In this document: piece by piece, positions 29,598-62,730 of the stretch
Layout: each line of letters starts with the position of its first letter
Numbering within the stretch: position 1 is the stretch's first letter
Made by a program: the position numbers and the translations under genes
The notes under the pieces: model-generated
The model's database searches: none
What the model was told of the DNA's origin: nothing
Seen by the model: the letters and a program-made list of their open reading frames with translations, nothing else
Source: an uncultured Prevotellaceae bacterium
GTDB taxonomy: Bacteria > Bacteroidota > Bacteroidia > Bacteroidales > Bacteroidaceae
Direction of reading: 5' to 3'
Length of the DNA stretch: 64,000 nt
Assembly: GCA_902768785.1 (NCBI GenBank)
Contig: CACXMM010000005.1
Coordinates: 1-64,000 of the forward strand

Positions 29598-29729
29598 TAT
29601 CTTTGCAAAGATACGATTAAGTGAGGGAAATACAAAATAAATTCTAATTTATTTTTGTTCCGAACGTGAGTATTTTCGTCAAAGACAAAGATACGATTAA
29701 GTGAGCAAAAAGCCAAATTAATTTGAGAA
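29598..29729 (-). repeat. Promoter-carrying repeat A, copy 1
   Basis: The copy contains two minus-strand boxes CTCACTTAATCGTATCTTTG. The -7 elements TATCTTTG lie at 29606-29613 and 29686-29693, each with TTTG 19 or 20 bases upstream. The first starts transcription about 30 nt from the ATG at 29574. The right end runs AAAAGCCAAATTAATTTGAG, shared with the other copies. Confidence 0.8.
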
Positions 29730-29744
29730 AAAACCACCTTGTTA

Positions 29745-29776
29745 TTTGGCTCTTATTTCTTTTATTCGTATTTTTG
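29745..29776 (+). promoter_or_regulatory. Promoter of the YitT-family gene
   Basis: TTTG (29745-29748), 20 bases, TATTTTTG (29769-29776), 18 nt before the ATG at 29795. Confidence 0.65.
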
Positions 29777-29794
29777 CATCGAGAACTTTAACAA

Positions 29795-30682
29795 ATGACG
29801 ATGGTTACCAATCCGCACATCCAAAGGAGGAGATATGTCAGTGAGATACAAGACTATCTACTCATCGCATTTGCCATGTTACTGGGAAGTGTGGGATGGG
29901 TGGTGTTTCTGTTGCCAAACGAGATCACCATGGGAGGATTGCCAGGTATCTCCTCCATCATCTTTTGGGGATTCGGGGTGCCAGTGCAGGTGTCGTATTT
30001 CGTGCTGAATGCCATCCTGTTAGGTATCGCCCTGAAGGTGATGGGTTGGAAGTTCTGTGTGAAGACCATCTATGCCGTGGTGTTGTTCACCTTCTTCACG
30101 TCGGTGGTACAGCCATGGGCTGCTCCTCTCCATCTGCTACACGACCAGCCCTTCATGGCGGCTATCGTGGGAGGTGCCTTTATGGGCCTCACCTCTGGCA
30201 TCGGCTTGTATTGCAACGGCAGTACCGGCGGTTCTGATCTGGTGGCGGCGATGGTGAACAAATACCATGATATCTCTTTGGGGAAGATTATCCTGATCTG
30301 CGACCTCATCATTATCACTGCCAGTTATCTGGTACTGCACGACTGGGAGAAAGTGATCTATGGTTTTGTGGTACTTTTCGTGGGCTCGTTTTGTGTGGAC
30401 CATTTCGTGAACTCCATGCGCAGCTCAGTGCAGTTCTTCATCATCTCACAACAGTATGAGGAGATCGGACGACTCATCAATCAGAATGCTCAGCGGGGAT
30501 GCACGGTCATCAACAGTCAGGGCTTCTATTCCGGTAAGGAGGTGAAGATGCTGTTTGTGCTGGCACGGCGGAATGAGTCGCAGCGCATCTTCCAGATTAT
30601 TGAGGAGACCGATCCCCATGCCTTCGTCTCACAATGTCCGGTAATCGGTGTCTATGGACTGGGCTTCGATCAGTTTAAGTAA
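29795..30682 (+). CDS. YitT-family membrane protein (DUF161 + DUF2179)
   Basis: 295 residues. Five or six hydrophobic helices fill the first ~210 residues (e.g. YLLIAFAMLLGSVGWVVFLL, GLTSGIGLYCNGSTGGSDL). A soluble C-terminal domain of the DUF2179 type follows (GRLINQNAQRGCTVINSQGFYSGKEVKMLFVLARR). Family members are predicted transporters of unknown substrate. A clear promoter lies upstream and a 32-bp gap leads to the next gene. Confidence 0.88.
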   Translation: MTMVTNPHIQRRRYVSEIQDYLLIAFAMLLGSVGWVVFLLPNEITMGGLPGISSIIFWGFGVPVQVSYFVLNAILLGIALKVMGWKFCVKTIYAVVLFTFFTSVVQPWAAPLHLLHDQPFMAAIVGGAFMGLTSGIGLYCNGSTGGSDLVAAMVNKYHDISLGKIILICDLIIITASYLVLHDWEKVIYGFVVLFVGSFCVDHFVNSMRSSVQFFIISQQYEEIGRLINQNAQRGCTVINSQGFYSGKEVKMLFVLARRNESQRIFQIIEETDPHAFVSQCPVIGVYGLGFDQFK

Positions 30683-30714
30683 ATGATTATGACCACTAAA
30701 GCAACTATTCAAAA

Positions 30715-31977
30715 ATGGAAAGACGTATCAAAAATGGAATCTGGCTCATTGTCGCCTTCTGCGCTATGACCTTGTCTGTCAAGGCACAGGATCATGAGAC
30801 GGCAGTCATCGACTCCACCAGACTCACCTATGAGGTGACTGGTGATGTGCGCGATGCCTCTACAGGACGGCGACTGCAATATGTCAACGTGCGTGTCTCA
30901 GGGAAAAAGTTCGCCACCGTGACGAATGCCGACGGCGGTTTCACCATCAAGACCAACGAGAAGCCACAACAGCTGGTGGTGTCGCACATTGGCTATCGTA
31001 CACAAAGGGTATCGCTCCAGGATGGTAATACAGGAAATGTCCGGGTGCGATTGGTACCCAATACGGTGATACTGGACAATGTGGTGGTGAGATCCGGCAA
31101 TCCCGAGACCATTGTGCGGGAGGCCATCCGCAAGATCCCTGATAACTACAGTAAGGTGCCGGAACTGTACAAGTGTTTCTACCGTGAGATTGCCCAGAAG
31201 CGGAAAAACTATATCTACATTGCCGAAGCTGTGACGGATATGTACAAGACTCCGTATAAATACGGTGTTGCGCAGGACCGTGTCTCTATCGTGAAGGGCA
31301 GGCGACTGGTGAGTCCAAGACAGAAAGACACCCTGTCGGTGAAGGTGATAGGTGGTCCTGTACAGGCCGTGATGCTCGATGCCGTAAAGAACTTGGATAT
31401 CCTGTTGAATGAGGAAGAACTTGCGTTATATGAACTGAAGATGGGTGATCCGGTAATGATTGGCGACCGCAAGCAGTTCACCATAACGCTCACGCCCCTA
31501 TACAACATCCATTACGCCTTGTTCTTCGGCACGCTCTACATCGACCAGGAAACCTTAGCGTTTACCCGCATCGAACTGTCACTGGATATGCGCGACCGAG
31601 AGAATGCCACACGTGCCATGCTGGTGAACAAACCTGCCGGGGTGCGGTTCCGACCTCGTGAGATGTCGTTTCTGATTAACTACAGCTACGATGGGGAATC
31701 ATCACATCTGAGCTATGTGCGTACACTTTTCCGGTTCAACTGCGACTGGAAGAAGCGTCTCTTTGCCACCAGTTTCACCGCCGTAAATGAGATGGTGGTG
31801 ACAGACAGGAAGAGTCACGACGTGAAACCTATTCCACGACGTGACTCCTTCGGTGGACACCAGTCACTCTACGACCGATCACAATATTTCGAAGACTCCG
31901 ACTTCTGGAAAGACTATAACATCATCAAGCCTACGGAGAGTCTGGAGGATGCCGTTGACCGTCTGCGGCATCGGTAA
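30715..31977 (+). CDS. Secreted protein with carboxypeptidase-regulatory-like domain
   Basis: 420 residues with a signal peptide ending MTLSVKAQ. Residues ~45-130 form a CarboxypepD_reg-like beta sandwich (YEVTGDVRDASTGRRLQYVNVRVSG...GGFTIKTNEKPQQLVVSHIGY). The remainder (REAIRKIPDNYSK...FYRE) matches the region found in many Bacteroidetes periplasmic proteins that accompany outer-membrane receptors, but lacks the receptor barrel. Function unknown; a structural or transport-accessory role at the outer membrane is likely. Confidence 0.78.
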   Translation: MERRIKNGIWLIVAFCAMTLSVKAQDHETAVIDSTRLTYEVTGDVRDASTGRRLQYVNVRVSGKKFATVTNADGGFTIKTNEKPQQLVVSHIGYRTQRVSLQDGNTGNVRVRLVPNTVILDNVVVRSGNPETIVREAIRKIPDNYSKVPELYKCFYREIAQKRKNYIYIAEAVTDMYKTPYKYGVAQDRVSIVKGRRLVSPRQKDTLSVKVIGGPVQAVMLDAVKNLDILLNEEELALYELKMGDPVMIGDRKQFTITLTPLYNIHYALFFGTLYIDQETLAFTRIELSLDMRDRENATRAMLVNKPAGVRFRPREMSFLINYSYDGESSHLSYVRTLFRFNCDWKKRLFATSFTAVNEMVVTDRKSHDVKPIPRRDSFGGHQSLYDRSQYFEDSDFWKDYNIIKPTESLEDAVDRLRHR

Positions 31978-31983
31978 TTCTTC

Positions 31984-34209
31984 CTATCGGATGAACAGCA
32001 TCTCACGATATTTCGGCAGCGTCCACAGCTCATCTGCCACGGTGAGCTCCAGCTTGTCAATATGATAGCGTATCTCATCCATCTTCGGTTCCACGGTGTC
32101 GTGATAGGCAATGGCCTTCTCGCGTTCACTCTCTATCCTATTGGCAACCTTCCGTGCGTTCACCAGTTCCTCCACCATGGTCTCGATGGTCTGGGTGCGC
32201 TCAGCAATCTCCTTGATGATCTTGATGTTCCGTGCGCAGAGCTTTTCTGCCTCCTCAGGTGAGAACACCTCACGCATGCTACCCACGTTCTTTGCCAGAC
32301 GCGTCTGGTAATGTGTAGCCACAGGGATGATATGATTCATGGTAAGGTCGCCTAATACACGTGCCTCAATCTGTATCTTCTTCGTGTAGGTCTCCCATTT
32401 CACCTCGTTGCGTGCCTTCAGCTCCTTCCTGTTCATGATGTTAAGGCTCTCGAACATGTAGATGCTCTCGGGGTCGAGGTAACGGTCGAAGATCAGCGGA
32501 CAGCTCTTCTCAACGTCCAGACCGCGTTTAGTTGCTTCCACCACCCATTCATCGCTGTAGCCATTCCCATCGAAGTGGATGGGTTTGCAGGTCTTGATGT
32601 CCTCGCGGATCACGTCGATGATGGCATGGAAGGTAGCAGAATGTTCTGATCCCTCAGCATATTCGGCCTTGTCGGCAATCTCGGCGATACGGGCATCCAC
32701 GCGTTTCTTGAAGTCGGTGAGGGCTTCGGCCACGGCGGCGTTCAGGGCGATCATCGCACTGGCGCAGTTAGCTTCCGATCCCACGGCACGGAACTCAAAG
32801 CGGTTTCCCGTAAAGGCGAAGGGTGATGTGCGGTTACGGTCGGTATTGTCGATAAGCAGTTCGGGAATCTCAGGGATGTCGAGTTCCATCTTCTTCTTAC
32901 CGGCCACCACGAAGAGGTCGTCTTTATCAGCTTTTTCGATATGTTCCAACAGTTCGCTCACCTGCTTGCCGAGGAAACTGGAAATGATGGCAGGGGGAGC
33001 CTCGTTGGCACCCAGACGGTGGGCATTGGTGGCACTCATGATACTCGCCTTGAGAAGACCGTTATGGCGATATACACCCATCAGCGTTTCCACGATGAAG
33101 GTCACGAATCGCAGGTTCTGCTCAGGAGTCTTCCCTGGAGCATGGAGCAAAGTGCCCGTGTCGGTGCTCAGACTCCAGTTGTTGTGCTTTCCCGATCCGT
33201 TGATGCCGTCGAAAGGCTTCTCATGGAGCAGTACGCGGAAACCATGCTTGCGAGCCACCTTTTTCATCAGCGACATCAGTAGCATGTTATGATCCACGGC
33301 CAGGTTCGTCTCCTCATAGATCGGGGCAATCTCGAACTGGTTCGGTGCCACCTCGTTATGACGAGTCTTACAGGGGATGGCCAGCTCCAGGGCTTGGATC
33401 TCCAGGTCTTTCATGAACGCCTGTACACGATCGGGGATCGTACCGAAGTAGTGGTCGTCCATCTGCTGGTTCTTGGCAGAGTCGTGTCCCATCAGTGTTC
33501 GTCCGGTGAGCATCAGATCGGGACGTGCCGAATACAAGCCTTCGTCCACCAGGAAATACTCCTGTTCCCATCCCAGGTTACTGATTACCTTCTTCACGTT
33601 CGGGTCGAAATAGCGGGCCACGGCAGCGGCAGCCTCACCCACGGCGCGCAGGGAACGTTTCAGCGGAGCCTTGTAGTCGAGGGCCTCACCGGTATAGGAG
33701 ATGAAGATGGTGGGGATACACAAGGTGTCATCGATGATGAACACAGGTGATGTGGGATCCCAGGCAGAATAGCCGCGGGCCTCAAAGGTAGCGCGGATTC
33801 CTCCGCTGGGGAACGACGAGGCGTCAGGCTCCTGTTGTACGAGCAGCTTCCCTGAGAATTCCTCAATCATGCCGCCCTTGCCGTCGTGCTCGATGAAGGC
33901 GTCGTGCTTCTCAGCCGTGCCCTCCGTCAGCGGTTGAAACCAGTGGGTGTAGTGGGTGACACCGTTCTCATCGGCCCACTGCTTCATTCCTTTGGCCACG
34001 GCATCGGCGATGCTTCTGTCGAGGGGTGCGCCGTTGTCGATAACATCGATGAGCTTCTCATAGACGTCGCGCTGCAGGTATTTGTACATCTTGGCACGTG
34101 TGAACACATACTTGCCAAAATACTCCGAGGGACGTTCCACGGGTGCAATGACGTCGAGTGGTTTCTTCTTGAAGGCCTCTTCAACAACCTGAAATCTTAA
34201 ATTTGCCAT
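31984..34209 (-). CDS. glnN: Type III glutamine synthetase
   Basis: 741 residues, the length of GSIII, with the family's blocks FGKYVFTRAKMYKYLQ, CKTRHNEVAPNQFEIAPIYEE, DGINGSGKHNNWSLST and RNRTSPFAFTGNRFE. It makes glutamine from glutamate and ammonia; GSIII is the usual enzyme in Bacteroidetes. A -7 promoter element lies upstream at 34287-34294, and the leader contains a CTCCTG/CAGGAG stem-loop near 34252-34268. No nitrogen regulator is encoded close by. It converges with the preceding gene with 6 bp between. Confidence 0.95.
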   Translation of the reverse strand: MANLRFQVVEEAFKKKPLDVIAPVERPSEYFGKYVFTRAKMYKYLQRDVYEKLIDVIDNGAPLDRSIADAVAKGMKQWADENGVTHYTHWFQPLTEGTAEKHDAFIEHDGKGGMIEEFSGKLLVQQEPDASSFPSGGIRATFEARGYSAWDPTSPVFIIDDTLCIPTIFISYTGEALDYKAPLKRSLRAVGEAAAAVARYFDPNVKKVISNLGWEQEYFLVDEGLYSARPDLMLTGRTLMGHDSAKNQQMDDHYFGTIPDRVQAFMKDLEIQALELAIPCKTRHNEVAPNQFEIAPIYEETNLAVDHNMLLMSLMKKVARKHGFRVLLHEKPFDGINGSGKHNNWSLSTDTGTLLHAPGKTPEQNLRFVTFIVETLMGVYRHNGLLKASIMSATNAHRLGANEAPPAIISSFLGKQVSELLEHIEKADKDDLFVVAGKKKMELDIPEIPELLIDNTDRNRTSPFAFTGNRFEFRAVGSEANCASAMIALNAAVAEALTDFKKRVDARIAEIADKAEYAEGSEHSATFHAIIDVIREDIKTCKPIHFDGNGYSDEWVVEATKRGLDVEKSCPLIFDRYLDPESIYMFESLNIMNRKELKARNEVKWETYTKKIQIEARVLGDLTMNHIIPVATHYQTRLAKNVGSMREVFSPEEAEKLCARNIKIIKEIAERTQTIETMVEELVNARKVANRIESEREKAIAYHDTVEPKMDEIRYHIDKLELTVADELWTLPKYREMLFIR

Positions 34210-34286
34210 AATCTTTTATCCTTAAATAATCTGACCTATGATTCTTTCTGTGCTCCTGCTCGACAGGAGTTGTAGATTTTGCCCTG

Positions 34287-34294
34287 CAAAGGTA
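34287..34294 (-). promoter_or_regulatory. Promoter -7 element of glnN
   Basis: Minus-strand TACCTTTG lies 78 nt upstream of the glnN ATG. No TTTG is seen at the usual -33 distance. The leader contains a stem-loop (CTCCTG...CAGGAG) that could be regulatory. Confidence 0.45.
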
Positions 34295-34341
34295 ATGCTT
34301 TTTTTTCTTTTATCGGCGATTGTCATCGATTTTCCTATCAT

Positions 34342-35580
34342 TTAGGCATGCAGCCACGCACGGATGCGGTGCAGGGCTTCCTCACAATCCCTGTGCTGAC
34401 AGAACGAGGTGAGGCGCACGAAACCCTCTCCCGAAGGTCCGAAGCCCACGCCCGGAGTACAGACCACCTGCGCTCCGTAAAGCATCTTCTCAAAGAAACC
34501 CCAGCTGCTGGTGCCGCGGGGAGTCTTCATCCACAGGTATGGAGCATTCTCCCCTCCATAGACGGTGAATCCCAGTCGGGTGAGCGTGTCTTTCATCAGT
34601 CGTGCGTTACCCATGTAATAGTCGATGGTCTGTTTCACCTGTTCCTTCCCCTCGGGGGTATAGATTGCTTCAGCGGCCCGTTGACTGATATAGCTGGTTC
34701 CGTTGAATTTGGTACTTTGTCTGCGGTTCCACAAGGGGTTAAGAGCAAGACGTTGTGTGCCGTCCATGGTCGCGGCAGTGATCTCCTTGGGCACAACGGT
34801 ATAGCCGCAGCGCACCCCTGTGAATCCTGCCGTCTTACTATAGCTGTGGAACTCGATGGCCACCTTCCGTGCCCCCTTGATCTCATAGATGGAATGTGGG
34901 ATGCTGTCATCTTGGATATAGGCCTGGTAGGCGGCATCGTAGAAGATGACCGCATCGTTCTTCAGGGCGAAGTTCACCCATTTGCGCAGTTCTTCCTTCG
35001 TGATGACCATTCCCGTGGGGTTATTGGGATAGCACAAGTAGATCATATCCACGCGGTGGTTGGGAATCTGGGGCACGAAACCGTTCTCCTCCGTACAGGG
35101 CATGTAGGTGACGTTACTCCATTCCCCCCGCTCGTTCACCGTTCCTGCCCTTCCGTTCATCACGTTGGAATCGATATATACGGGATAGATGGGATCGGTG
35201 ACGGCCATGGAGTTGTCCCACCGCACCAGATCACCGATGTTTCCCGTATCACTCTTGGCACCGTCGTTTACAAACACCTCTTCCGGACTGATATGGATGC
35301 CGCGGGGCAGGAAATCGTTCTTCACGATAGCCTCGCGCAGCCAGGGGTAGCCCTGTTCCGGTCCGTAGCCATGGAAACCTTCCAGAGTGCCCATATCATC
35401 AACGGCACGGTGCATGGCTTCGATGACGGCAGGACAGAGCGGTTGTGTGACATCCCCAATGCCTAAGCTGATCACCCGTGCGTTGTGATGGCTCACCTTG
35501 TAGGCGTTCACCTTCTTGGCGATGTCGGCGAAGAGATAGTTCTTCGTCAGTTTCAGATAGTGTTCGTTGATCAGCGCCAT
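34342..35580 (-). CDS. dapL: LL-diaminopimelate aminotransferase
   Basis: 412 residues of the PLP-dependent class I/II aminotransferases, matching the DapL branch (VSHHNARVISLGIGDVTQPLCPAV, LCYPNNPTGMVI, PLP-lysine in HSYSKTAGFTGVRCGY). It converts tetrahydrodipicolinate to LL-diaminopimelate in one step, giving lysine and peptidoglycan precursors without succinylated or acetylated intermediates. It starts 2 bp after the nitroreductase stop; that gene precedes it on the same strand. Confidence 0.92.
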   Translation of the reverse strand: MALINEHYLKLTKNYLFADIAKKVNAYKVSHHNARVISLGIGDVTQPLCPAVIEAMHRAVDDMGTLEGFHGYGPEQGYPWLREAIVKNDFLPRGIHISPEEVFVNDGAKSDTGNIGDLVRWDNSMAVTDPIYPVYIDSNVMNGRAGTVNERGEWSNVTYMPCTEENGFVPQIPNHRVDMIYLCYPNNPTGMVITKEELRKWVNFALKNDAVIFYDAAYQAYIQDDSIPHSIYEIKGARKVAIEFHSYSKTAGFTGVRCGYTVVPKEITAATMDGTQRLALNPLWNRRQSTKFNGTSYISQRAAEAIYTPEGKEQVKQTIDYYMGNARLMKDTLTRLGFTVYGGENAPYLWMKTPRGTSSWGFFEKMLYGAQVVCTPGVGFGPSGEGFVRLTSFCQHRDCEEALHRIRAWLHA

Positions 35581-35582
35581 TC

Positions 35583-36212
35583 TTAGTCCTTCGGATAGCC
35601 AATCGGGTGGTTCAGTTCAAGGTAGGCACCCTCGGGGAGTCCCAGTTCCTTGCGCACCGCCTCCTGGTTCATCATGGCACGGGCCACGGTACGCAGTCCC
35701 ATGGCAGCACAGGCTAAGTAAATATTCTGGGATACATAGCCGGCATCCATGGCACCATAGTGCTCGTTCTTACGGTCGCGTGTGCTCTGGTCACTTACCA
35801 GCAGCAGGTTCACCGTCACTTCGGCAGCAAACTTCTGAGGACCTGCCAGTGCTTCGCGAATATCCTTGCTGATGACAGGGATCAATGTGTTCTCCTTCGC
35901 GTTATACAGACAAACGCCTTGTGCGGTGCACACATAGATCTTGATGTCTTGCATGTTCACGGCAGTAGGAGCCGTGAGTTTCCCACTCTGCTTGTCGTTC
36001 ACACCGCTGGCTGCCCAGAGCAGTGTTGACAGCTGCTGCGGTGTAATCTCTTTCACGGTGTATTCGCGGTAAGAGCGCCTGTTCTGCAAGGCCTCGCCTA
36101 ACGGCATGTTCAACGACTCTTTCTCGGGTTGTGGCAGCTGAATAGCTTGTTGTGCCTGTACGCATCCGCCCATCATCATCAGGACCAATGCCAATGTCAT
36201 CATTTTCTTCAC
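35583..36212 (-). CDS. SagB/nitroreductase-family protein with lipoprotein-like signal
   Basis: 209 residues. A signal sequence with lipobox (MMMGGC, Cys17) precedes the FMN-dependent nitroreductase fold: LQNRRSYREYTVKEI, LLWAASGVN, and VSQNIYLACAAMGL (flavin-binding helix). SagB/ThcOx-type members are exported in several Bacteroidetes. Its substrate is unknown. It is driven by promoter repeat A2 and precedes dapL by 2 bp, perhaps only through shared transcription. Confidence 0.8.
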   Translation of the reverse strand: MKKMMTLALVLMMMGGCVQAQQAIQLPQPEKESLNMPLGEALQNRRSYREYTVKEITPQQLSTLLWAASGVNDKQSGKLTAPTAVNMQDIKIYVCTAQGVCLYNAKENTLIPVISKDIREALAGPQKFAAEVTVNLLLVSDQSTRDRKNEHYGAMDAGYVSQNIYLACAAMGLRTVARAMMNQEAVRKELGLPEGAYLELNHPIGYPKD

Positions 36213-36239
36213 GTTTCTTTAATTTTAGTAAATTCTGCG

Positions 36240-36400
36240 TGCAAAGATACGATTAAGCGAGGGAAATACAAAATAAATTCTAATTTATTTTTATTTGCTT
36301 TCCTCACTTCGTGAACAGCGACCGTTGGTTCCGAGCGTGAGTATCTTCGACGAAGTCAAAGATACGATTAAGTGAGCAAAAAGCCAAATTTATTGGCTAT
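36240..36400 (-). repeat. Promoter-carrying repeat A, copy 2
   Basis: Two minus-strand promoter boxes with -7 elements at 36242-36249 and 36357-36364. Both have TTTG 19 or 20 bases upstream. Box 1 points at the nitroreductase start 30 nt away. About 35 extra bases lie between the boxes relative to copy 1. Confidence 0.8.
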
Positions 36401-36478
36401 TATATACTTTTAGACCCCATTTTTCAGTTCTCAAATTCTTGATAAAGATCTACCTGAGTCAAATCATATTAAAAAAGC
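36395..36478 (-). repeat. Intergenic repeat B, reverse copy
   Basis: Reverse of the 6032/21460 elements: GGCTATTATATACTTTTAGA to TCAAATCATATT. It abuts promoter repeat A2. Confidence 0.65.
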
Positions 36479-36863
36479 AATGGAGCAGGAACTGTATCAC
36501 ACCAGTCAGCTCCTACTCCCGCAATCCCTACAGTCCAGATGAGGGACGGTATTTTGTGTTTGTTTATATCTTTGCGGATGAACCGTTCTTTTGTCTGCCC
36601 TTTTGGGAGGTATGTTTCTATTTGCTTGCAAAAGTAAGAAGAATCTGTCAAACTGACACCCTTTCTCATAAAAATCTTCCCACTTTTATTCAATATTAAA
36701 AGCAAAAATAACAATCTGTAACTATTATCATTTCCTTTCCTTACGATTTGACATCAAATGAATGTCTTTTTCTTATAATCTCACAAATTGACTGTTTTGT
36801 TTGCTTTATACTATAAATATGGTATTTTTGGGGTGAATGTGCTGATGAATCAAAAATTTTTCT

Positions 36864-36871
36864 TACTTTTG
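36864..36871 (+). promoter_or_regulatory. -7 element of the ECF sigma gene
   Basis: TACTTTTG matches TAnnTTTG, 26 nt before the ATG at 36898. No TTTG lies 19-20 bases upstream. Confidence 0.4.
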
Positions 36872-36897
36872 CAGTCATGTTTTAATCATTGAGAGAG

Positions 36898-37473: not shown

Positions 37474-37475
37474 GG

Positions 37476-37552: not shown

Positions 37553-37558
37553 CTCGAA

Positions 37559-44915: not shown

Positions 44916-46241
44916 TTACTTCAGATGCTTTTTGATCCATTCCATGTGACCGTATTCCGTAGCCTCACTGGTCCAGTGCTCATTGATGGGGGTGATCAGT
45001 GACTCTTTCTCCCCTGGTAATGTGTTCCATACGGCATAGCTGGTAGTGGGTGGACAGGTATCATCGTTGTATCCCCAGGTGAGATAGGATACGGCTTTCA
45101 CATAACGGGCGAAGTTCACCACGTCGTAGTAAGCCATGGTCTGTATCTTCTCGGGGGTAAGCATGTGGTTCATCTTGTTGAAGTGAGGATAGCCGCCAGT
45201 ACGTCCTTTCTCAGCATATCCCGCCATGTCGCTTAATGCAGGGTGGTTTGCCACACAGAGGGTGACGCGGGGATCAAGTCCTGCGGTGACGATAGCCAAG
45301 GCACCGCCCTGACTGCCTCCCTGCACTGCCACGTTCCTACCGTCCCATTCGGGTAAGGAGGTAAGGAGATCGATGCTGCGCACACAGGCCAGATAGACCC
45401 GTTTCATGTAGTAGTTCTCACGACTGTCGAGTCCGTTCTCCAAGTAACCGTTGTCACCGCTGTTCAGGGCATTGCTGATCTCCTTGAACTGCTCATCGGT
45501 CATCGTGGGGTTCAGTCCGTGGATCTCTATCTCGAAACGGATGAAGCCGTTCTCGGCATAGTATTTGTGGCGCAGGGGCTCCTTGATGGTTTTCACACCC
45601 GCTCCCGGTGGGCACATCACCACAGGACAGCTGCCTTTCTTCGCGTTCTTGGGATAGAACAAGTAACCGTAGATGACATGTCCGCGACTGTCTAACTGCA
45701 GACGTACCAGATAGCAGTCGATCTTGTCGGTACAATACTCCTTAGCCAGCTCCTTCGTATAGGTGAGGGGGAAACGGGCCGCCTCTGTCTTACACTGATC
45801 CCAGAAGGTCTTGAAATCCTTCGGCTCCTGTGTGAAAGGACGGATCTTCTCTGGAGAGAAGCCCACTTTCACATGGTGCTTGTACTCCTTGCCGTCGAGG
45901 GTGATCTTCAGGCGGAGGTCACGGAACCCAGGATCCTTGCGCGTTCCTATAGGTATCAGTGCCCGTCCGTTCTTCAAGGCAACCGTCCCTTTATCGTCAT
46001 CGGGCAGCATATCATTGCCCACGGTATAGACAACAGTACCCTCACGGGGGATGCCGTACTTGTAGAACTGCACCTCGATGGTCGCTTTCTCACCCGTCTG
46101 ATAGATCCAGTCGGCATGATCGGGCACAGTAACCCAAAGGTAGTCACTGCGATAGGGATAGTTCTCGGCATGGACTCCCAATAAGGTTACCCAGAGGAAC
46201 ATGACGGTCATGACAGTGCTCCGTAAGATATTCTTCTTCAT
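44916..46241 (-). CDS. Acetylxylan-esterase-like (AXE1) hydrolase
   Basis: 441 residues with signal peptide. The N-terminal ~140 residues form a beta-sandwich-like region. The catalytic domain has VVMCPPGAGVKTIKEPL, the nucleophile in AVQGGSQGGALAI, and a late Asp/His (GYNDDTCPPTTSYA; NEHWTSEATEYGHME). AXE1/cephalosporin-C-deacetylase members remove acetyl groups from xylo-oligosaccharides. It is driven by promoter repeat A3. No other hemicellulose genes lie alongside it. Confidence 0.85.
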   Translation of the reverse strand: MKKNILRSTVMTVMFLWVTLLGVHAENYPYRSDYLWVTVPDHADWIYQTGEKATIEVQFYKYGIPREGTVVYTVGNDMLPDDDKGTVALKNGRALIPIGTRKDPGFRDLRLKITLDGKEYKHHVKVGFSPEKIRPFTQEPKDFKTFWDQCKTEAARFPLTYTKELAKEYCTDKIDCYLVRLQLDSRGHVIYGYLFYPKNAKKGSCPVVMCPPGAGVKTIKEPLRHKYYAENGFIRFEIEIHGLNPTMTDEQFKEISNALNSGDNGYLENGLDSRENYYMKRVYLACVRSIDLLTSLPEWDGRNVAVQGGSQGGALAIVTAGLDPRVTLCVANHPALSDMAGYAEKGRTGGYPHFNKMNHMLTPEKIQTMAYYDVVNFARYVKAVSYLTWGYNDDTCPPTTSYAVWNTLPGEKESLITPINEHWTSEATEYGHMEWIKKHLK

Positions 46242-46281: not shown

Positions 46282-46400
46282 CAAAGATACGATTAAGTGA
46301 GAGAAATACAAAATAAATCAATTTATTTTTATTTCCGAGCGCAAGTATCTTCGACGAAGTCAAAGATTAAGTGAGCAAAAAGCCAAATTTATTTGAGCTT
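46282..46400 (-). repeat. Promoter-carrying repeat A, copy 3
   Basis: One complete minus-strand box has -7 element 46282-46289 and TTTG 19 bases upstream, 40 nt before the esterase start at 46241. The second box (about 46361) has lost five bases and reads AATCTTTG, so it is probably inactive. Confidence 0.78.
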
Positions 46401-53498: not shown

Positions 53499-53499
53499 T

Positions 53500-54816: not shown

Positions 54817-54880
54817 TTCCGTTATTGTTTGTCCTTATTACGTTAACTACACTGGTTTGGTGTACTATTCCATTGTATTT

Positions 54881-55828: not shown

Positions 55829-56855
55829 GGCGGGTCGTTTTAGGGTTGAGAAGGGCATCCAGGGCCTTTACCAGCAGATCGTTCTCCTCGGGAGTCTGTG
55901 CGGCCACGCGGATATAATGACGGTCGAGTCCAGCGAAGTTATGTGCCGAGCGCACCAGGATACCATAACTGTCCACCAACCGGCGTTTCATCTCCAGACT
56001 GTCGGCTTCTGCCATCCTCACCAGCATGAAGTGGGTCTGTGTGGGCAATGCCTCTATGTGACGGATGCGGTTCAGTTGGTCACGGAGCCGCTGTGCCTCT
56101 TGCAAATAGCCATCCCTGTCGAAATGGAAATCACCATGATGCTCCAGAAGATAGCGGCAGGCCACCAAGGCCAGGGCGTTCACGCTCCAGGGCATCCGGT
56201 GGTCGCGGAGGGTGTCGATGAGTGACTGCGGCCCCGTGACATAGCCTAAGCGCAAACCTGGTATGCCGTATTTCTTTGTCATCGAATGCAGCAGGATGAC
56301 ATTCCCTAAATGGGCTGCCTCCCGCGACTGCAGCAGCTCTTCCCGGCAGAAGAACGCGTAACTCTGGTCGATGATGAATACCGTATGGGGATGGTCAAAG
56401 GCAGCCCTCACCAGCTGTTCCTTCGCCAGCACTTGTCCGGTGGGGTTGTTGGGGTTGCAGAGCCATACCACATTCATCTCATCGGTGACCTCATCGAGAG
56501 AATGGAGATAGGTTACCTGATGACCGTGCAGCCTGCAGGCATCGGCATATTCACTGAAGGTGGGTATGAGCACGGATGAACGGCATCCTGCTCCTGTGGC
56601 CTGCGCAATGAGATAGATAGCCTCGGTGGCTCCGCTGGTGACCAGTGTCTCCCCCTGACGGTTCCTGAGGAGGATGCTCAGCTCTCGTTCCAGTGCGGTG
56701 GCTGCTGCCGGCGGATAGTGATCGATGACATCCATCGATGCCGACAGGTATTCCTTCAGTCCTTCCATCCGGATAGTGGTGCACAGATTAGAGCTGAAAT
56801 TGTGCCTGATTACCCCTTCATATTCGTAAATATCGTCTCCATGTCCTGTAATCAT
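55818..56855 (-). CDS. Threonine-phosphate decarboxylase-like aminotransferase (CobC/CobD)
   Basis: 345 residues of the PLP fold-type I family: WLCNPNNPTGQV, FIIDQSYAFF and the PLP-lysine in LHSMTKKYGIPGLRLGY. It overlaps cbiB by 11 bp, so it is most likely L-threonine-O-3-phosphate decarboxylase, making aminopropanol phosphate for cobalamin. A histidinol-phosphate aminotransferase would look similar. The -7 element is four bases from ATG 56855, implying a leaderless mRNA. Confidence 0.85.
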   Translation of the reverse strand: MITGHGDDIYEYEGVIRHNFSSNLCTTIRMEGLKEYLSASMDVIDHYPPAAATALERELSILLRNRQGETLVTSGATEAIYLIAQATGAGCRSSVLIPTFSEYADACRLHGHQVTYLHSLDEVTDEMNVVWLCNPNNPTGQVLAKEQLVRAAFDHPHTVFIIDQSYAFFCREELLQSREAAHLGNVILLHSMTKKYGIPGLRLGYVTGPQSLIDTLRDHRMPWSVNALALVACRYLLEHHGDFHFDRDGYLQEAQRLRDQLNRIRHIEALPTQTHFMLVRMAEADSLEMKRRLVDSYGILVRSAHNFAGLDRHYIRVAAQTPEENDLLVKALDALLNPKTTRHDE

Positions 56856-56859
56856 GCTG

Positions 56860-56867
56860 CAAATATA
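56860..56867 (-). promoter_or_regulatory. -7 element overlapping the cobalamin operon start, leaderless
   Basis: Minus-strand TATATTTG ends four bases before ATG 56855. No clear -33 TTTG is present. Confidence 0.55.
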
Positions 56868-56884
56868 CAATTTTATTTAAAATA

Positions 56885-56918
56885 TTTGCGGATTATTGCG
56901 CGTTTTTCATTACTTTTG
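56885..56918 (+). promoter_or_regulatory. Promoter of rbfA
   Basis: TTTG (56885-56888), 22 bases, TACTTTTG (56911-56918), 22 nt before rbfA. It lies back to back with the cobalamin promoter. Confidence 0.6.
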
Positions 56919-56940
56919 CAATCAAAAAAGAAATTGAACG

Positions 56941-57276
56941 ATGCAAGAAACAAGACAGAATAGAATATCCCGACTGCTCCAAAAGGAGCTGAGCCTGATT
57001 TTTCAGAGTCAGACAAGAATGATGCGTGGGGTGATGGTGAGTGTGACCCGTGTGAAGATTTCACCCGACTTAAGTGTGTGTACCGCTTACCTGAGCATCT
57101 TCCCCAGTGAGAGAGGTGAGGAGCTGATGCAGAATATCCAGAAGAACGAAAAGACCATCCGTTACGAACTGGGTACAAGGGTGCGCAACCAGCTGCGCAT
57201 CATCCCCGAGCTGCGCTTCTTCATCGACGACTCGCTCGATTACATTGAGCACATCGATGAGCTCCTGAAGAAATAA
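56941..57276 (+). CDS. rbfA: Ribosome-binding factor A
   Basis: 111 residues of the KH-like RbfA fold: RISRLLQKELSLIF near the start, VKISPDLSVCTAYLSIF (central strand), and RIIPELRFFIDDSLDYIEHIDELLK at the end. It helps maturation of the 30S subunit at the 16S 5' end. The next gene, a permease, follows after a repeat-filled 78-bp spacer. Confidence 0.93.
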   Translation: MQETRQNRISRLLQKELSLIFQSQTRMMRGVMVSVTRVKISPDLSVCTAYLSIFPSERGEELMQNIQKNEKTIRYELGTRVRNQLRIIPELRFFIDDSLDYIEHIDELLKK

Positions 57277-57282
57277 CACCCC

Positions 57283-57350
57283 TCCCCCCTCATCCCTCAT
57301 CCCTCATCCTTCATCTTTAATCCCTCATCTTTAATCCCTCATCCCTCATC
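57283..57350. repeat. TCCCTCATC tandem spacer repeat
   Basis: About eight degenerate CTCATCC/CTTTAATCC units lie between rbfA and the LolC/E-like permease. The composition contrasts sharply with the coding sequence on both sides. Confidence 0.75.
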
Positions 57351-57354
57351 CAAA

Positions 57355-58584
57355 ATGTCCTTCCCCTTCTACATCGCCAAGCGCTACCTCTTCTCCAAGA
57401 AGAGCACGCATGCCATCAACCTGATCAGTGGGATCAGCGTGATCGGTGTGGCCGTGGCTACCATGGCCTTGGTGGTGACACTGAGCGTATTCAACGGATT
57501 CCACGACATGGTGGCCACGTTCTTTACGTCCTTTGATCCCCAGCTGAAGATTACACCGGCAAAGGGGAAGACAGCCCCTGCCGATGATCCGATCCTCACC
57601 GAGATACGCAAACTGCCTGCGGTGGATGTGGCCACGGAGAGCATGGAGGACAATGCGCTGGCTGTCTATGAAGGGCGTCAGGCCATGGTGGTGGTAAAGG
57701 GTGTGGACAACAACTTTGCCGAGCTCACCCATATCACCGAGATCCTTTATGGTGACGGAGAATTCGAGCTTCAGGCGGCAAACCTGCAATATGGGGTGTT
57801 GGGACTCCGGCTGGCGGCACAGTTAGGAACGGGAGCACGGTGGAAGGACTACCTGAAGATCTATGCGCCGAAGCGGGAAGGACAGCTTGATATGACTGCT
57901 CCCGAAGAGGCTTTCGTGGAAGACTCCCTGCTCTCCCCTGGCGTCATCTTCTCGGTGAAGCAGGCGAAATACGACAAGAACTATATCCTCGTGCCCATCA
58001 GCTTCGCACGTAACCTGTTCTGGCAGGAGGGCATGCTCTCTTCGCTGGAGCTGCGACTGAAGGCGGGTAGCGACCTCGACAAGGTGAAGAAGCAGATGCG
58101 GCAGATCGCCAAGGATAAATATAAGGTGGAAGACCGATACGAGCAGCAGGCCGATACCTTCCGTATCATGGAGGTGGAGAAGTTCATCGCCTATATCTTC
58201 CTCACGTTCATCCTCGTGGTGGCCTGCTTCAATATCATCGGCTCTCTCTCCATGCTCATCATCGACAAGAAAGACGATGTGGTGACGCTGCGCAACCTCG
58301 GGGCCAGCGACAAGCAGATTATCCGGATCTTCCTCTTTGAGGGGCGCATGATCTCAGCATTGGGAGCCGTCATCGGTATCCTCATCGGACTGCTCCTCTG
58401 CTGGATACAGCAAACATTCGGGGTGGTGAGCCTCGGACAGTCGAGCGGTTCGTTCGTCGTGGATGCCTATCCTGTGAGTGTGCATCCTACGGATATTATC
58501 CTGATCTTCTTCACCGTGCTTCTCGTGGGTTTCCTCGCCGTATGGTATCCCGTGAGGTATTTCGCCCGAAGACTGCTGGAGTAG
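57355..58584 (+). CDS. LolC/LolE-type FtsX permease
   Basis: 409 residues. An N-terminal helix (INLISGISVIGVAVATMALVVTLSVFNGF) is followed by a large periplasmic domain (~50-270) and three C-terminal helices (e.g. AYIFLTFILVVACFNIIGSLSMLIIDKK). KSTHAINLIS is typical of LolC/E, which extract lipoproteins from the inner membrane. The ATPase LolD is not encoded here. The family call is firm; the exact cargo is inferred. Confidence 0.87.
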   Translation: MSFPFYIAKRYLFSKKSTHAINLISGISVIGVAVATMALVVTLSVFNGFHDMVATFFTSFDPQLKITPAKGKTAPADDPILTEIRKLPAVDVATESMEDNALAVYEGRQAMVVVKGVDNNFAELTHITEILYGDGEFELQAANLQYGVLGLRLAAQLGTGARWKDYLKIYAPKREGQLDMTAPEEAFVEDSLLSPGVIFSVKQAKYDKNYILVPISFARNLFWQEGMLSSLELRLKAGSDLDKVKKQMRQIAKDKYKVEDRYEQQADTFRIMEVEKFIAYIFLTFILVVACFNIIGSLSMLIIDKKDDVVTLRNLGASDKQIIRIFLFEGRMISALGAVIGILIGLLLCWIQQTFGVVSLGQSSGSFVVDAYPVSVHPTDIILIFFTVLLVGFLAVWYPVRYFARRLLE

Positions 58585-58622
58585 GTCTTAGTTCATCGTT
58601 CATAGTTAGGAGTTGAAAGAAT

Positions 58623-60527
58623 ATGAAGGAAAGAGTATTTTATCTGGTAAGAATCTATCTCTTTATGGTGTTGGCACTGATCCTGGCAAAGCCGGTATTC
58701 ATGCTGTACAACCATGCAAACCATCCGTTTACCGCCCATGAGGTGATGCAGGTCATGAGCCATGGCATCACCCTCGACCTCTCCACGGCGTTGTATCTCA
58801 TCGTGGTGCCTTTCCTCGTCACCCTCCTGTCTGTATGGCTGTGGCGCTGGAACGGACTGCGACAGCTGCTCAAGGGATACTATGTCCTGGTGGCTTTCCT
58901 GCTCGCCCTCGCCTTTGTGGCCGATACCAGCCTGTACGAGTTCTGGGGCTTCAAGCTCGATGCCTCCGTGCTGCCCTATCTGAGCACACCGAAGGAGGCC
59001 TTTGCCAGCGTGTCGTTCTGGTATCTCCTGGTACGGATCCTGGTGATCGTACTCGTGGCCTGGATCCTCTATAAGATCATGGTGCTGCTCACCCCCGTGG
59101 AAAGGGAACGCCGGCGGAGCATCCGGCAGATCGGCTACTCCGGTGGCCGCTCCACCCAGAGGGGCTTGTTCCATATCTCCCCTGTCAAGATGGCGGGAAC
59201 ACGACTCATCGCCACCGTGGTGGGACTCCTGCTCATTCCTTTGTTCGTCATCGGCATGCGCGGGGGCACCAGTGTGTCAACGAGTAATGTCGGACAGGTG
59301 TATTTCTCGCAGAACCAGTTCCTGAACCATTCCGCCGTGAACCCGCTGTTCAGCTTCCTCTCGTCTTTCGGTAAGACGGCCACGGTGAAGGAGGAGAAGC
59401 ACGAATACGAGTTCTTCAGCGAGAAGGAGTGCAAGAAGCTCCTGGAGGGAATCTTCGATACACGCAGCGAGAACCCCGATGTCCTGCTTACCACCAAGAA
59501 CCCGAATATCCTGCTGGTAATCATGGAGGGCTGCGGCAGCATCTTCACCGAGGCCAACGGGAACGGCCATGTCACACCCAACCTCACGAAGCTGTCCGCC
59601 GAGGGGGTGTATTTCACCAACTGCATCGCCAACAGCTGGCGCACCGACCGCGGCATGGTGAGCATCCTCAGCGGCTATCCTGCCTTCCCCCATCAGTCGG
59701 TGATGAAGATGGCACAGAAATGCGAGACGCTCCCCTCCATCGCACGAACCCTGAAGGGCAAGGGCTATGCTACCACCTTCCTCTATGGGGGTGATGCGAA
59801 CTTCACCAATGCGCGCGGCTATCTCACCAGTACGGGCTTCGAGAAGATCATCAGCGAGGATGACTTCTCCAAGGAGGAACGCGGTGACTCCAAATGGGGC
59901 GTGAACGACTGGGTGGTGTTCGGACGTCTGCTCGACCTCGTGAAACAGCAGAACGATACAGGGAAGCCGTGGTTCACCACCATGCTCACCCTGAGCAGTC
60001 ATGAGCCGTGGGATGTGCCCATGAAGAAGAAATTCGATGACAAGATCCAGAACGCGTTCTATTTCCTCGACATCTGTCTGGGTGACTTCATCAACAAGCT
60101 GAAGAGGACTCCCGCGTGGGAGAACACCCTCGTGGTGATCCTGCCCGACCATAGCATCCAGTATCAGGATATCGACCAGACCAAGGCCATGCGTAACCGC
60201 ATCCCGATGATCTGGACGGGTGGCGCCGTGGCACAGGCGAAGCGCATCGGCATGGTGTGTAACCAGACGGATCTCGCCGCCACACTCTTCGGACAGATGG
60301 GACTCCCTCATGATGACTTCGCCTTCAGCCGTGACATCCTGAGCAAGACCTACCAGCGGCAGTTTGCCATGAACAACTGGACAGAGGGCTTCGCCACCTT
60401 CGATGCCACCGGCTTCAACGCCTATAGCCTGAACAGTAAGAAGATGATCGCAGGAAAGGAGGGCAAGGCCATCGAAACGGGTAAGGCCATCCTGCAGGCT
60501 ACCAGTGAGGACCTGAGGAAAAGATAA
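58623..60527 (+). CDS. LTA-synthase-like sulfatase/phosphoethanolamine transferase
   Basis: 634 residues. Five N-terminal membrane helices (to ~175) and a further one near 210 anchor an alkaline-phosphatase-fold domain. Catalytic landmarks are IMEGCGSIFTEANG (metal Glu), SWRTDRGMVSILSGYP (nucleophile Thr), and LPDHSIQY (metal Asp-His). Such proteins transfer a phospho-alcohol group to lipids or sugars in the envelope. It converges with the next gene with one base between stops. Confidence 0.88.
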   Translation: MKERVFYLVRIYLFMVLALILAKPVFMLYNHANHPFTAHEVMQVMSHGITLDLSTALYLIVVPFLVTLLSVWLWRWNGLRQLLKGYYVLVAFLLALAFVADTSLYEFWGFKLDASVLPYLSTPKEAFASVSFWYLLVRILVIVLVAWILYKIMVLLTPVERERRRSIRQIGYSGGRSTQRGLFHISPVKMAGTRLIATVVGLLLIPLFVIGMRGGTSVSTSNVGQVYFSQNQFLNHSAVNPLFSFLSSFGKTATVKEEKHEYEFFSEKECKKLLEGIFDTRSENPDVLLTTKNPNILLVIMEGCGSIFTEANGNGHVTPNLTKLSAEGVYFTNCIANSWRTDRGMVSILSGYPAFPHQSVMKMAQKCETLPSIARTLKGKGYATTFLYGGDANFTNARGYLTSTGFEKIISEDDFSKEERGDSKWGVNDWVVFGRLLDLVKQQNDTGKPWFTTMLTLSSHEPWDVPMKKKFDDKIQNAFYFLDICLGDFINKLKRTPAWENTLVVILPDHSIQYQDIDQTKAMRNRIPMIWTGGAVAQAKRIGMVCNQTDLAATLFGQMGLPHDDFAFSRDILSKTYQRQFAMNNWTEGFATFDATGFNAYSLNSKKMIAGKEGKAIETGKAILQATSEDLRKR

Positions 60528-60528
60528 A

Positions 60529-62508
60529 CTATAGCTTCCATCTGAGTTGGAATTCGAGATCCGTCATCGAGGAGCCATTTACCTGTTGGTAACCGCTGCC
60601 GATGACGGATCTGTCGAAATAGTCGGTCACAGCTATTCGCGTATGAATCATGAGTTTTTCCGACAACTGAGCTTTCAGCAGCAACGAGTAGCGGATACCT
60701 TTCCCATAGACCACGGGAAACGAGAAACTGTATAGCATGCCGCGCTCATAGAGATACATTCTGCTGTCATAATCATCCGTATGGAAATAGGCTGCGGCGA
60801 GATGAGCCTGAAACATCTTATTCATTCGCCAGCTGATCAACTGACTCACCGTCCATCCCCTGCTGCTTTTCTCATTCTGTACACAAGCGATGTCGGCTTG
60901 TGTCTTGGTGGAGAGGATGGTGCCATCAAAACTCACCGACACCCTTCCGCGATGCTCCTGTTGGGAGCAGAGTGCCGATTTCTGTTCGTTGTCCTTTTCT
61001 TTGATATGCAGACGGTAGCGTGCAGAGAACGTCCAGCTGCCTGAGAGGTAAGAAAAACTGAGCAGGTAGTCCTGATGATACGATGAGGCTGAAGCCTGAT
61101 ACCTTGGCCATGCAAAATAGGCGATGTCGGCATAGGCGGAAGCAAAGAGTTTACGGGATGGCTGCCAATGCGCTCCTACATACAGGCCGCTCTCGTTTTG
61201 CACATGACCGCCCTCACTGAATGCTTGTGCCTGCAATGCCGTATATCGCATGCCGTAGAAACGTTGCAGTACCATCAAGCTGAGTTCCGATGACATGTGT
61301 ATGTTGGCTGTATTTAAGGTAGCAAGAGCTCCTTTGCGGTCGATGGCTGTCTCCCCATGGAAGGACAGTCGATGATGGATATAGCCATAATCGATGCCCA
61401 TATTCAGGAAATCTCGTCCTTGAGGATAGTAGTAACGGTAGAGTATCTTCGTATTGGGTTTCAGGGGTCGGCTGAGATGGGAATAGACCAGGTTCATAGC
61501 CGCATGCCATGCACCGTTCCTGTAGCCCACTGTAGTCCCCGCTGTAGTCAGAAAGGTATTGTTCTTCTTTTTCAGTTCATTGACAGTGCGATGGTAACCT
61601 CCTTCCACAAGGGATGAGATACTGAGTGAGTCACTGTTTAAGGTACCATCCATAGGACGGTAGGACAAGAAGGGGGTGACCTGTAGGAACCTTGACAGCT
61701 GTAGGGTTGCTGCTAAACCCTGTAGATAATGTGCAGAGGAAGTGGAAGAGTGGGGACGTAGGATTTGACGCTGTCTGCCCAGAGAGGTCAGTGCTGCCGA
61801 CTTCCCCAATAGGAAGTCACTGTTCATCATCAGTCCCATGCCCATACTCATGCGGTATTTGCCGGCCATCAAGGTTTTCACTATTCCTACATGATTACAC
61901 ATCAGGTAAAAAGAATAGAAATCATAGCCCATCGTATTCCCGTTGCGGAAGAAAGGCTCACCCGAATCCTGTGCGCCAATCAGTCCTGCACGCCAACAGT
62001 CACCTTGGCGAAACGCATAACGTATCTGATGACGGTATCGTTCACCTAAATAGCCGTTGCGGTCACCTTTCCGTTCATAAAGGGGTGCCTTGAGCGTGAG
62101 CATTACCTCATGATGCCCCTTACCGTCTGACTGTTTTGTCTTTTCTTCCTCACCCAAGAAGACGAAACACTGCAGTAGCTGGCGTTTGATGGCAGGGAGT
62201 GACTCGATCATTGCCAACTCGCCAAAACTCTTCATCGGTGAATAATGATAAAGATAGGCACAAATCTCTTCAATTTCTTCATCGGTAAGAAAAGGCAGTT
62301 GGGATAGTTGTTCCGGGGTGGCAGTGTTCAGGTTAAAGGGGTGTTGCTCGAGATCACACAGCAGCTCACTCATCTCTTCCCATTGCGCCATCTCTATCTC
62401 ATCATGGTCATACAACTGGTGGTAATAACTCTCCCAGGTTTGTGCGGGAAGGAATTGACAAGGGAAAAGGATTAGGACAAATGTCCACAACAATGACTTT
62501 TTCATAGT
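60529..62508 (-). CDS. Helix-hairpin-helix outer-membrane protein
   Basis: 659 residues from ATG 62508 (MKKSLLWTFVLILFPCQFLPAQ signal peptide). Residues ~55-110 form a ComEA-like helix-hairpin-helix pair (FNLNTATPEQLSQLPFLTDEEIEEICAYL). The rest is a long series of amphipathic strands, consistent with a large outer-membrane beta-barrel. HhH-fold domains normally bind DNA, so a role in DNA uptake or in the outer-membrane handling of DNA is conceivable but not shown. Confidence 0.78.
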   Translation of the reverse strand, partial: TMKKSLLWTFVLILFPCQFLPAQTWESYYHQLYDHDEIEMAQWEEMSELLCDLEQHPFNLNTATPEQLSQLPFLTDEEIEEICAYLYHYSPMKSFGELAMIESLPAIKRQLLQCFVFLGEEEKTKQSDGKGHHEVMLTLKAPLYERKGDRNGYLGERYRHQIRYAFRQGDCWRAGLIGAQDSGEPFFRNGNTMGYDFYSFYLMCNHVGIVKTLMAGKYRMSMGMGLMMNSDFLLGKSAALTSLGRQRQILRPHSSTSSAHYLQGLAATLQLSRFLQVTPFLSYRPMDGTLNSDSLSISSLVEGGYHRTVNELKKKNNTFLTTAGTTVGYRNGAWHAAMNLVYSHLSRPLKPNTKILYRYYYPQGRDFLNMGIDYGYIHHRLSFHGETAIDRKGALATLNTANIHMSSELSLMVLQRFYGMRYTALQAQAFSEGGHVQNESGLYVGAHWQPSRKLFASAYADIAYFAWPRYQASASSYHQDYLLSFSYLSGSWTFSARYRLHIKEKDNEQKSALCSQQEHRGRVSVSFDGTILSTKTQADIACVQNEKSSRGWTVSQLISWRMNKMFQAHLAAAYFHTDDYDSRMYLYERGMLYSFSFPVVYGKGIRYSLLLKAQLSEKLMIHTRIAVTDYFDRSVIGSGYQQVNGSSMTDLEFQLRWKL

Positions 62509-62632
62509 TAAATGATTTAAGTTTGACATAGTGAAAGGGCAGGTGATTGTAGTCTTATCTTCTCATCCCACCACTTTTCAATCGACAAAGGTACGAATAA
62601 ATAAGCAAAAATACAAATATTATTTTGTAATT

Positions 62633-62730
62633 CTCTCACTTAATCGTATCTTTGACTTCGTCGAAGATACTCACGCTCGAAAAAGCTCAAATAAATTTGG
62701 CTTTTTGCTCACTTAATCGTATCTTTGCAG
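62633..62730 (+). repeat. Promoter-carrying repeat A, copy 4 (inverted)
   Basis: Two plus-strand boxes. The first has TTTG then 19 bases and TATCTTTG (62647-62654); the second has TTTG (62696-62699), 20 bases and TATCTTTG (62720-62727). The module order is permuted relative to copies 1-3. It ends five bases before the DUF4294 start. Confidence 0.8.

Follow-up and report, generated by a model that had tools for sequence, protein, structure and literature searches.

Short non-coding promoter units of Prevotella that probably move and probably insert behind existing -7 boxes

The window analyzed here, a stretch of 64,000 nucleotides from an uncultured Prevotellaceae bacterium (assembly GCA_902768785.1, contig CACXMM010000005.1, positions 1 to 64,000 of the forward strand; the genome, denoted G000, is a Prevotella of 3.41 Mb in 82 contigs), contains four copies of a dispersed promoter-bearing repeat, with genes for a UPF0227/HAD-like fusion, a nitroreductase, an acetyl xylan esterase and a DUF4294 protein located 3' of copies 1-4, respectively. 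Comparison with related genomes indicates that the four copies probably belong to a family of mobile promoter units, which are short, non-coding and non-autonomous and insert behind existing -7 boxes. As read from the alignments, sister genomes differ by the presence or absence of whole units with edges exactly at TTTG^; most first units lie directly behind a plain -7-like box, with the junction of TTTG^ and the 5' untranslated region rebuilt; and the gene-nearest unit is kept intact while farther-upstream units decay. The units in the window, and the genes that they are predicted to drive, are as follows.

29606-29685, minus strand: gene-proximal full unit of copy 1, 80 bp, starting just past the upstream TTTG and ending with its own TATCTTTG
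29686-29729, minus strand: upstream partial unit of copy 1, half a palindrome and an intact box (29686-29705)
28558-29574, minus strand: UPF0227/HAD-like fusion gene, predicted to be driven by copy 1
36242-36356, minus strand: gene-proximal unit of copy 2, a long variant of 115 bp with an extra module of ~38 bp, GGAACCAACGGTCGCTGTTCACGAAGTGAGGAAAGCAAAT
36357-36400, minus strand: upstream partial unit of copy 2, with an intact box (36357-36376)
35583-36212, minus strand: nitroreductase gene, predicted to be driven by copy 2
46282-46360, minus strand: gene-proximal full unit of copy 3, 79 bp
46361-46400, minus strand: upstream partial unit of copy 3, box minus 5 bp (CTCACTTAATC/TTTG)
44916-46241, minus strand: acetylxylan esterase gene, predicted to be driven by copy 3
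62613-62654, plus strand: upstream unit of copy 4, with an intact box (62635-62654) and a palindrome common to the divergent box
62655-62727, plus strand: gene-proximal full unit of copy 4, 73 bp
62733-63383, plus strand: DUF4294 gene, predicted to be driven by copy 4, ATG 5 nt past the unit
62586-62605, minus strand: fifth, divergent family box, CTTATTTATTCGTACCTTTG, with two mismatches, facing a minus-strand gene (60529-62529)

An earlier reading of the window (hereafter, the original prediction) had described these copies by a common box, and a search with this box, CTCACTTAATCGTATCTTTG, finds it where it had been placed, six times exactly, at 29606-29625, 29686-29705, 36357-36376 and 46282-46301 on the minus strand and at 62635-62654 and 62708-62727 on the plus strand, and once with a single mismatch, at 36242-36261 (minus strand); at up to three mismatches there are seven matches in the window and none in 100 dinucleotide shuffles. 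Copies 1-3 lie on the minus strand and copy 4 on the plus strand. The damaged second box attributed to copy 3 is indeed there (CTCACTTAATC-----TTTG, 46361-46375, minus strand), the gene-nearest boxes lie close before the start codon as had been claimed (31, 29, 40 and 5 nt from TTTG in copies 1-4, the second value being to a GTG and 38 nt to an ATG), and the copies also share sequence outside the promoter. The different order of modules that had been assigned to copy 4 is better described as successive units with different palindrome cores. The fifth box (62586-62605, minus strand), which the original prediction did not include, shares its palindrome with copy 4. The ~38-bp module of copy 2 (GGAACCAACGGTCGCTGTTCACGAAGTGAGGAAAGCAAAT, ~36295-36332) is also found at L243 and L205 (from G000 and its sister genome Prevotella sp. 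UBA3294) and may be another small repeat that sits inside the palindrome.

A typical unit is 73-86 bp long and is composed as follows (61 units; 105 left-anchored): a loop (GGCTTCGCC and variants), AAGnTAC, T.., C[GA][CT]TCGG, a palindrome, CTC[AG]nTTnnYCG and TAnCTTTG. The unit begins right after one -7 box, TAnnTTTG, and ends with its own -7 box, so that the junction TTTG^gene is regenerated. The palindrome, which is AT-rich and variable in sequence and length, played no part in choosing the units, and its arms covary, with 97 double-change cells in 49 aligned units compared to 33.6 in shuffles (0 of 500 shuffles reach this value); 90.8% of the cells are paired vs 40-50% when the arms are slid. 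The terminal inverted repeat AAGnTAC/GTAnCTT is paired in 95.9% of the cells, one pair occurring as GC, AU and UA in 22, 16 and 9 cases, but this helix is partly biased because the units were chosen with at most one mismatch there; the repeat is not located at the extreme left tip, as the loop of ~9 nt comes first. An alternative hairpin with the preceding CTTTG is paired in 75.2% of the cells vs 66.9% in shuffles. RNAalifold gives no consensus fold on the unit alignment, and the helices named here were instead counted directly; a search of Rfam at the gathering score yields no matches in the window or in four element loci. A junction hairpin that requires pairing with the host -7 box was considered and rejected because the unit complement fits its own right box at a LolA-like gene, discussed below, and at L356 of Segatella copri.

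The unit also includes what is, judged by its motifs, a complete housekeeping-type promoter, TTTG-N19/20-TAnnTTTG. A -33 TTTG, which is the right arm of the palindrome, is found upstream of 186 of 198 terminal boxes, at 19 nt (115 boxes) or 20 nt (71 boxes). Both motifs match the housekeeping promoter consensus of Bacteroides given in passages of PMC7366714, a consensus that is presumably used in Prevotella as well. The position of the units relative to genes fits this prediction: 188 of 200 terminal boxes in four genomes are followed within 200 nt by an ATG open reading frame (ORF) of at least 80 amino acids, at a median distance of 23-27 nt (59/65 in G000, 51/54 in UBA3294 (G174), 43/46 in Tb.RUG.501 (G177) and 35/35 in RGIG9694 (G176)), compared to 0.48-0.56 for random sites, a control that also counts internal ATGs, and 0.40-0.52 for the opposite direction. 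Thus, the proposed orientation toward gene starts holds, and the matches are not evenly distributed relative to these starts. Among the 12 exceptions, one precedes tRNA-Arg, one precedes a 76-amino-acid ferredoxin, another precedes, by eye, a similar ferredoxin-like ORF, and one (L185+13289) resembles a chance match within a coding region. The genes behind units, as identified by Pfam, include argS, a metA-type gene, a FabD-type acyltransferase and QueC, as well as a ksgA-type methylase in S. copri; the LolA-like gene scores below the Pfam cut-off. The suggestion that such unrelated genes are under common control finds no support, and no regulator was found.

The right edge of the unit is sharp. 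In 124 same-genome pairs of sequences that lie upstream of unrelated genes and are at least 87% identical over the 55 bp ending at TTTG, the identity of the next three bases is 0.45, 0.60 and 0.31, so nothing is common past TTTG; the pairs were chosen for similar right ends, and their high internal identity follows from this choice. At the left edge, 20 of 26 first-in-array units directly abut a -7-like box, which is perfect in seven cases and has one mismatch in the others; once five rows that are orthologous to others and one with a damaged family box are set aside, 15 of 20 independent first units retain such a box, 5 of them perfect, vs 8.0% and 0.5% in shuffles. The repeated CTTTG at the junction can be attributed to either host or unit, and the variable -7 bases belong to the unit. 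Units form tandem arrays that include different subfamilies, with a period of 66-89 bp in the arrays read. Perfect boxes account for 76 of the 91 gene-proximal boxes vs 7 of the 23 boxes that are followed by another unit (p = 3e-8), a contrast that may be inflated because the stretches were chosen by good boxes; intact proximal and decayed upstream boxes are what takeover by the newest unit predicts.

Sister genomes differ in the presence of units at the same sites. In UBA3294, the argS promoter contains one unit, with TTTG directly before it and CA directly after it, and the matching sequence of G000 is plain TATTCGTACCTTTGCA; no unit is found at this gene in G175-G178, which are more distant by protein identity. 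At the locus of copy 3, UBA3294 has no unit and shows plain TATCTTTGCA near the matching place. For the DUF4294 gene, comparison of the 190 nt before the matched start in 80 orthologues shows the two-unit element, beyond the window genome, only in UBA3294; RUG047 (G175) has one unit-like palindrome and a box with three mismatches, and most of the others have a plain TAnnTTTG or none, some of the matched starts lying inside the gene. The best other nitroreductase orthologue (64%) is too distant, and this gene was left out of the presence/absence comparison. Altogether, 30 of the 57 G000 clusters have a blastn match in the fetched UBA3294 stretches, a few of which are not true orthologues (e.g., rows 4, 32, 35 and 42). 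In the close pair G176/G177, the aligned segments of which are 91-97% identical, units differ at 8 of 17 loci (L266+9653, L266+17207, L266-14489, L272-888, L273, L275, L279 and L283; 18 rows, read by eye) and 9 look alike. In the clearest case, a TAAC-type unit lies directly after ...CTCACTTATTCGTACTTTTG, a TACT-type box, in G176 and is missing in G177. In a BLAST search with this unit, G176 yields 25 matches, one of which is its own site, G177 yields 19, and G175 and G178 yield 21 each, the best overall match being 93% over 71 nt in G178. By a script count, 4 of 47 indels of at least 40 bp in 12 aligned G176/G177 segments held family boxes. The metA locus, tried as a clean pair of empty and filled sites, was rejected as ambiguous once G176 was compared. 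An assembly error in tandem repeats is possible for any single array.

These comparisons agree with the original prediction in that the promoter unit is dispersed, modular and lineage-variable, being present in some sister genomes and absent from others. Nor is it ancestral at every locus across relatives. The notion of a mobile or gene-converting promoter stands in substance; the part according to which the element delivers promoters to promoterless genes does not, as, at comparable sites, the unit-free genome has a plain TAnnTTTG-type promoter at the same place.

The family is abundant in the close relatives of G000. The 20-mer box gives 64 matches in this genome at up to three mismatches vs none for the reversed pattern, and a search with a covariance model of the unit gives at least 103 places in G000, at least 96 in UBA3294, at least 127 in RUG047, at least 122 in RGIG9694, at least 125 in Tb.RUG.501 and at least 112 in RGIG7613 (G178), the counts being lower bounds as no more than 127 candidates were scored in each genome. 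At an E-value of 0.01, the model matches 30 of 35 genomes and gives no match in G016, G181, G187, G188 and G195, the weak matches in distant genomes having been inspected in three only. Among 398 genomes of the genus, a sample slightly affected by duplicate records under different handles (G174/G260, G006/G179 and probably G177/G118), 257 have at least one box at up to two mismatches (87 of 175 good assemblies), with 1 to 99 boxes per carrying genome, and 141 are without a box; of 24 genomes from outside the genus, one has a single box match. The left-end pattern is noisy at three mismatches (70 matches vs 39 in the control; 36 at up to two). Arrays and units of the same plan and of other sequence occur in Xylanibacter caecicola (74-89 bp; some units have TATATTTG boxes with the matching complement AATATA), Xylanibacter rarus (77-84 bp) and the human gut species S. 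copri (66-67 bp, one of 81 bp), so the design predates any single sequence family.

Several other features were noted. One is a multi-copy gene family, the members of which start almost identically (MRKAMRFT..) and carry the same units, at L178, L183, L197 and L207 of G000 and at L225 and L230 of UBA3294, in two cases at contig ends; its promoter may have been duplicated together with the gene. At L196:1849-1950 of G000, and in a matching stretch of G177 (L264), the unit is followed by a conserved stretch, a candidate small RNA; in L196, this stretch ends in a terminator-like hairpin with a T run and has no ORF of 80 amino acids and no Rfam match. Intergenic arrays of short repeats of the AAAGTTCAAAGTTC type (L295, L266 and L284) vary strongly between the close genomes G176 and G177, and a chain of short repeats of the CGATAT/ATAACG type lies directly upstream of a unit at L187 (minus strand, index 8020) and L234, from G000 and UBA3294, respectively.

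If the units are mobile promoters that insert behind -7 boxes, a new unit would be copied between the -7 box and the transcription start by an enzyme acting in trans, and the inserted unit would take over transcription; the old promoter, now 75 bp upstream, would become redundant and decay, and recombination between short repeats would afterwards delete or fuse units. Such a cycle of takeover and decay would allow the family to spread through promoters, even those of essential genes, at little cost. A transposase working in trans is a first guess for the mobiliser. Speculatively, and with considerable doubt, the units might be genus-wide non-coding parasites, new copies of which enter the -7 region of active promoters while its strands are separated (open-complex-coupled integration) and rebuild both the invaded promoter and the next landing site; if this is true, the housekeeping core promoters of Prevotella and Segatella would be continually replaced by a selfish element.

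A number of observations weigh against insertion of mobile units. The upstream unit is only partial in copies 1-3 of the window, a -7-like box is missing from the edge in 5 of the 20 independent first units, and a target-site duplication is indistinguishable from the repeated -7 box. At the LolA-like gene, the same unit type is found in G000 and G175 and the site is empty at the same base in UBA3294, G176 and G177, which needs either repeated loss or repeated gain, so that the locus is unpolarised and its pattern, as far as these alignments go, is not that of one-way insertion. At metA, the seemingly plain left promoter of G000 may be a truncated unit, according to a third genome, and, at L266+17207, the body of the unit is replaced inside conserved flanks, which is recombination-like. 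The G176-only unit has no near-identical donor, the best match elsewhere in G176 being 86-89%. No match to the Y1 transposase family (PF01797) is found in G000, which is 99.88% complete, and no autonomous copy of greater length is seen in the ~1.9 Mb of stretches that were picked around matches, so that densities in them are not genome averages; in these stretches, all but one of the 67 strict left ends are followed by a right end at a distance of up to 135 nt.

Several of these points belong equally to the main rival, a transposase-free process that we consider unlikely although it deserves serious attention, in which promoters overwrite one another through gene conversion or ectopic template switching. 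Short homologies would be supplied by the palindromes and by the CGTAnCTTTG repeats of 8-10 bp, and repair or replication that jumps there to a different unit and returns would copy precisely the segment between two -7 boxes. That the edges fall on the repeated -7 box, that units at L272-888 and L266+17207 are hybrid or replaced, that those at fabD are reordered, that no transposase of the single tested family is found in G000 and that the G176-only unit has no near-identical donor there are all compatible with such a process. It accounts less well for first insertions into plain promoters, which share just ~8 bp with the donor, and for the ~100 copies per genome with a constant left end (loop, AAGnTAC and C..TCGG), as in a discrete mobile sequence; in addition, at the LolA-like site and at L356 of S. 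copri, the complement carried by the unit fits its own right box and not that of the host.

It is improbable that the unit is a conserved regulatory module, with the palindrome or the CTCACTTATTCG box as the binding site of a regulator and with co-regulation as the advantage through which selection would spread and maintain the module upstream of a regulon. Conservation of the gene-proximal boxes and their wide occurrence, in 257 of the 398 genus genomes, would be expected of such a module; but in the palindrome it is the pairing and not the sequence that is conserved, unlike in an operator, sister genomes differ in the genes that carry units, and the downstream genes are diverse (argS, metA, FabD-type, queC, ksgA-type, ferredoxin and tRNA-Arg). 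Less probable still is an element of the IS200/IS605 or REP/RAYT type (REP, repetitive extragenic palindromic) moved by a Y1 transposase. The unit resembles this mode of movement in having a hairpin at either end, in its position 3' of a short fixed sequence and in showing no clear duplication, and weak PF01797 matches occur in three high-copy genomes (G007, G009 and G033); however, among the genomes searched, G000 and the high-copy genomes G032, G027 and G035 give no match, and a Y1 mobiliser was rejected for G000. Convergence of ordinary promoters on a strong lineage consensus, without any repeat, can be practically dismissed despite the match of the -7 and -33 motifs to the Bacteroides consensus in the passages of PMC7366714, since the copies also share the left end, the loop and the palindrome beyond the promoter, the arms of the palindrome covary, the box is absent from 141 of the 398 genus genomes, and the exact unit-sized indels already refute it, in agreement with the original prediction.

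If the units are indeed mobile promoters, turnover of bacterial core promoters would become directly testable, and the family would help explain unrelated promoter sequences at orthologous Prevotella genes, supply natural promoter arrays that differ in the number of units and indicate a mobilising activity. Promoter annotation in the carrier genomes should handle the arrays as repeats.

Several known systems resemble the units in part. Matus-Garcia, Nijveen and van Passel ('Promoter propagation in prokaryotes', 2012) reportedly described putative mobile promoters that are repeated upstream of unrelated genes within a genome. That study is cited for such promoters in passages of PMC8049555 and PMC9208149. 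The family described here likewise places near-identical promoters before non-homologous genes in one genome (the 124 pairs) and differs in the TTTG^ edges, the regeneration of the junction behind a -7 box, the tandem arrays and the covarying palindrome. Correia elements and the pneumococcal BOX are small dispersed repeats, some Correia elements carrying promoters and BOX being modular with variable repeats; neither is known to have a -7 box target or a regenerated promoter junction. REP elements and REPINs are short, palindromic, extragenic, high-copy sequences associated with RAYT (Y1) transposases, and they are not known to lie at core promoters. The family unit is likewise short, palindromic, extragenic and of high copy number, but no Y1 enzyme was found in G000. 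Passages of PMC3733652 treat REP elements of this kind. Invertible promoters of Bacteroidales are also mobile promoter segments in the same bacterial order, but they flip in place between inverted repeats, whereas the units discussed here are gained or lost and nearly all face a gene.

As in miniature inverted-repeat transposable elements (MITEs), the units are short (<~600 bp), non-coding and present in many copies, and they have terminal inverted repeats, the latter evidence being partly biased. Passages of PMC4596501 describe BrickBuilt, a MITE of Porphyromonas gingivalis with 23-nt repeats between a leader and a tail, bidirectional promoters and 4-bp duplications, which sits 49-591 nt from genes. 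BrickBuilt shares with the family a host in the Bacteroidales, a non-coding nature, expansion and contraction of internal repeats in tandem, promoter activity (predicted here) and an exclusively intergenic location; it differs in that here each 66-89 bp repeat is a predicted one-way promoter at a median of 23-27 nt from the ATG. No BrickBuilt-like 23-nt repeats, leader or tail are present in the arrays read. A literature search, covering titles, abstracts and passages, yielded no description of the element, of the -7 landing site or of its exact regeneration. This family, with ~100 or more model matches in each of the six closest genomes, is almost confined to promoters and rebuilds them exactly, whereas mobile elements are generally known to stay away from promoters or to destroy them. 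Both mobile promoters and MITEs that carry promoters are known kinds of elements; what is new is the core promoter as a target that is rebuilt.

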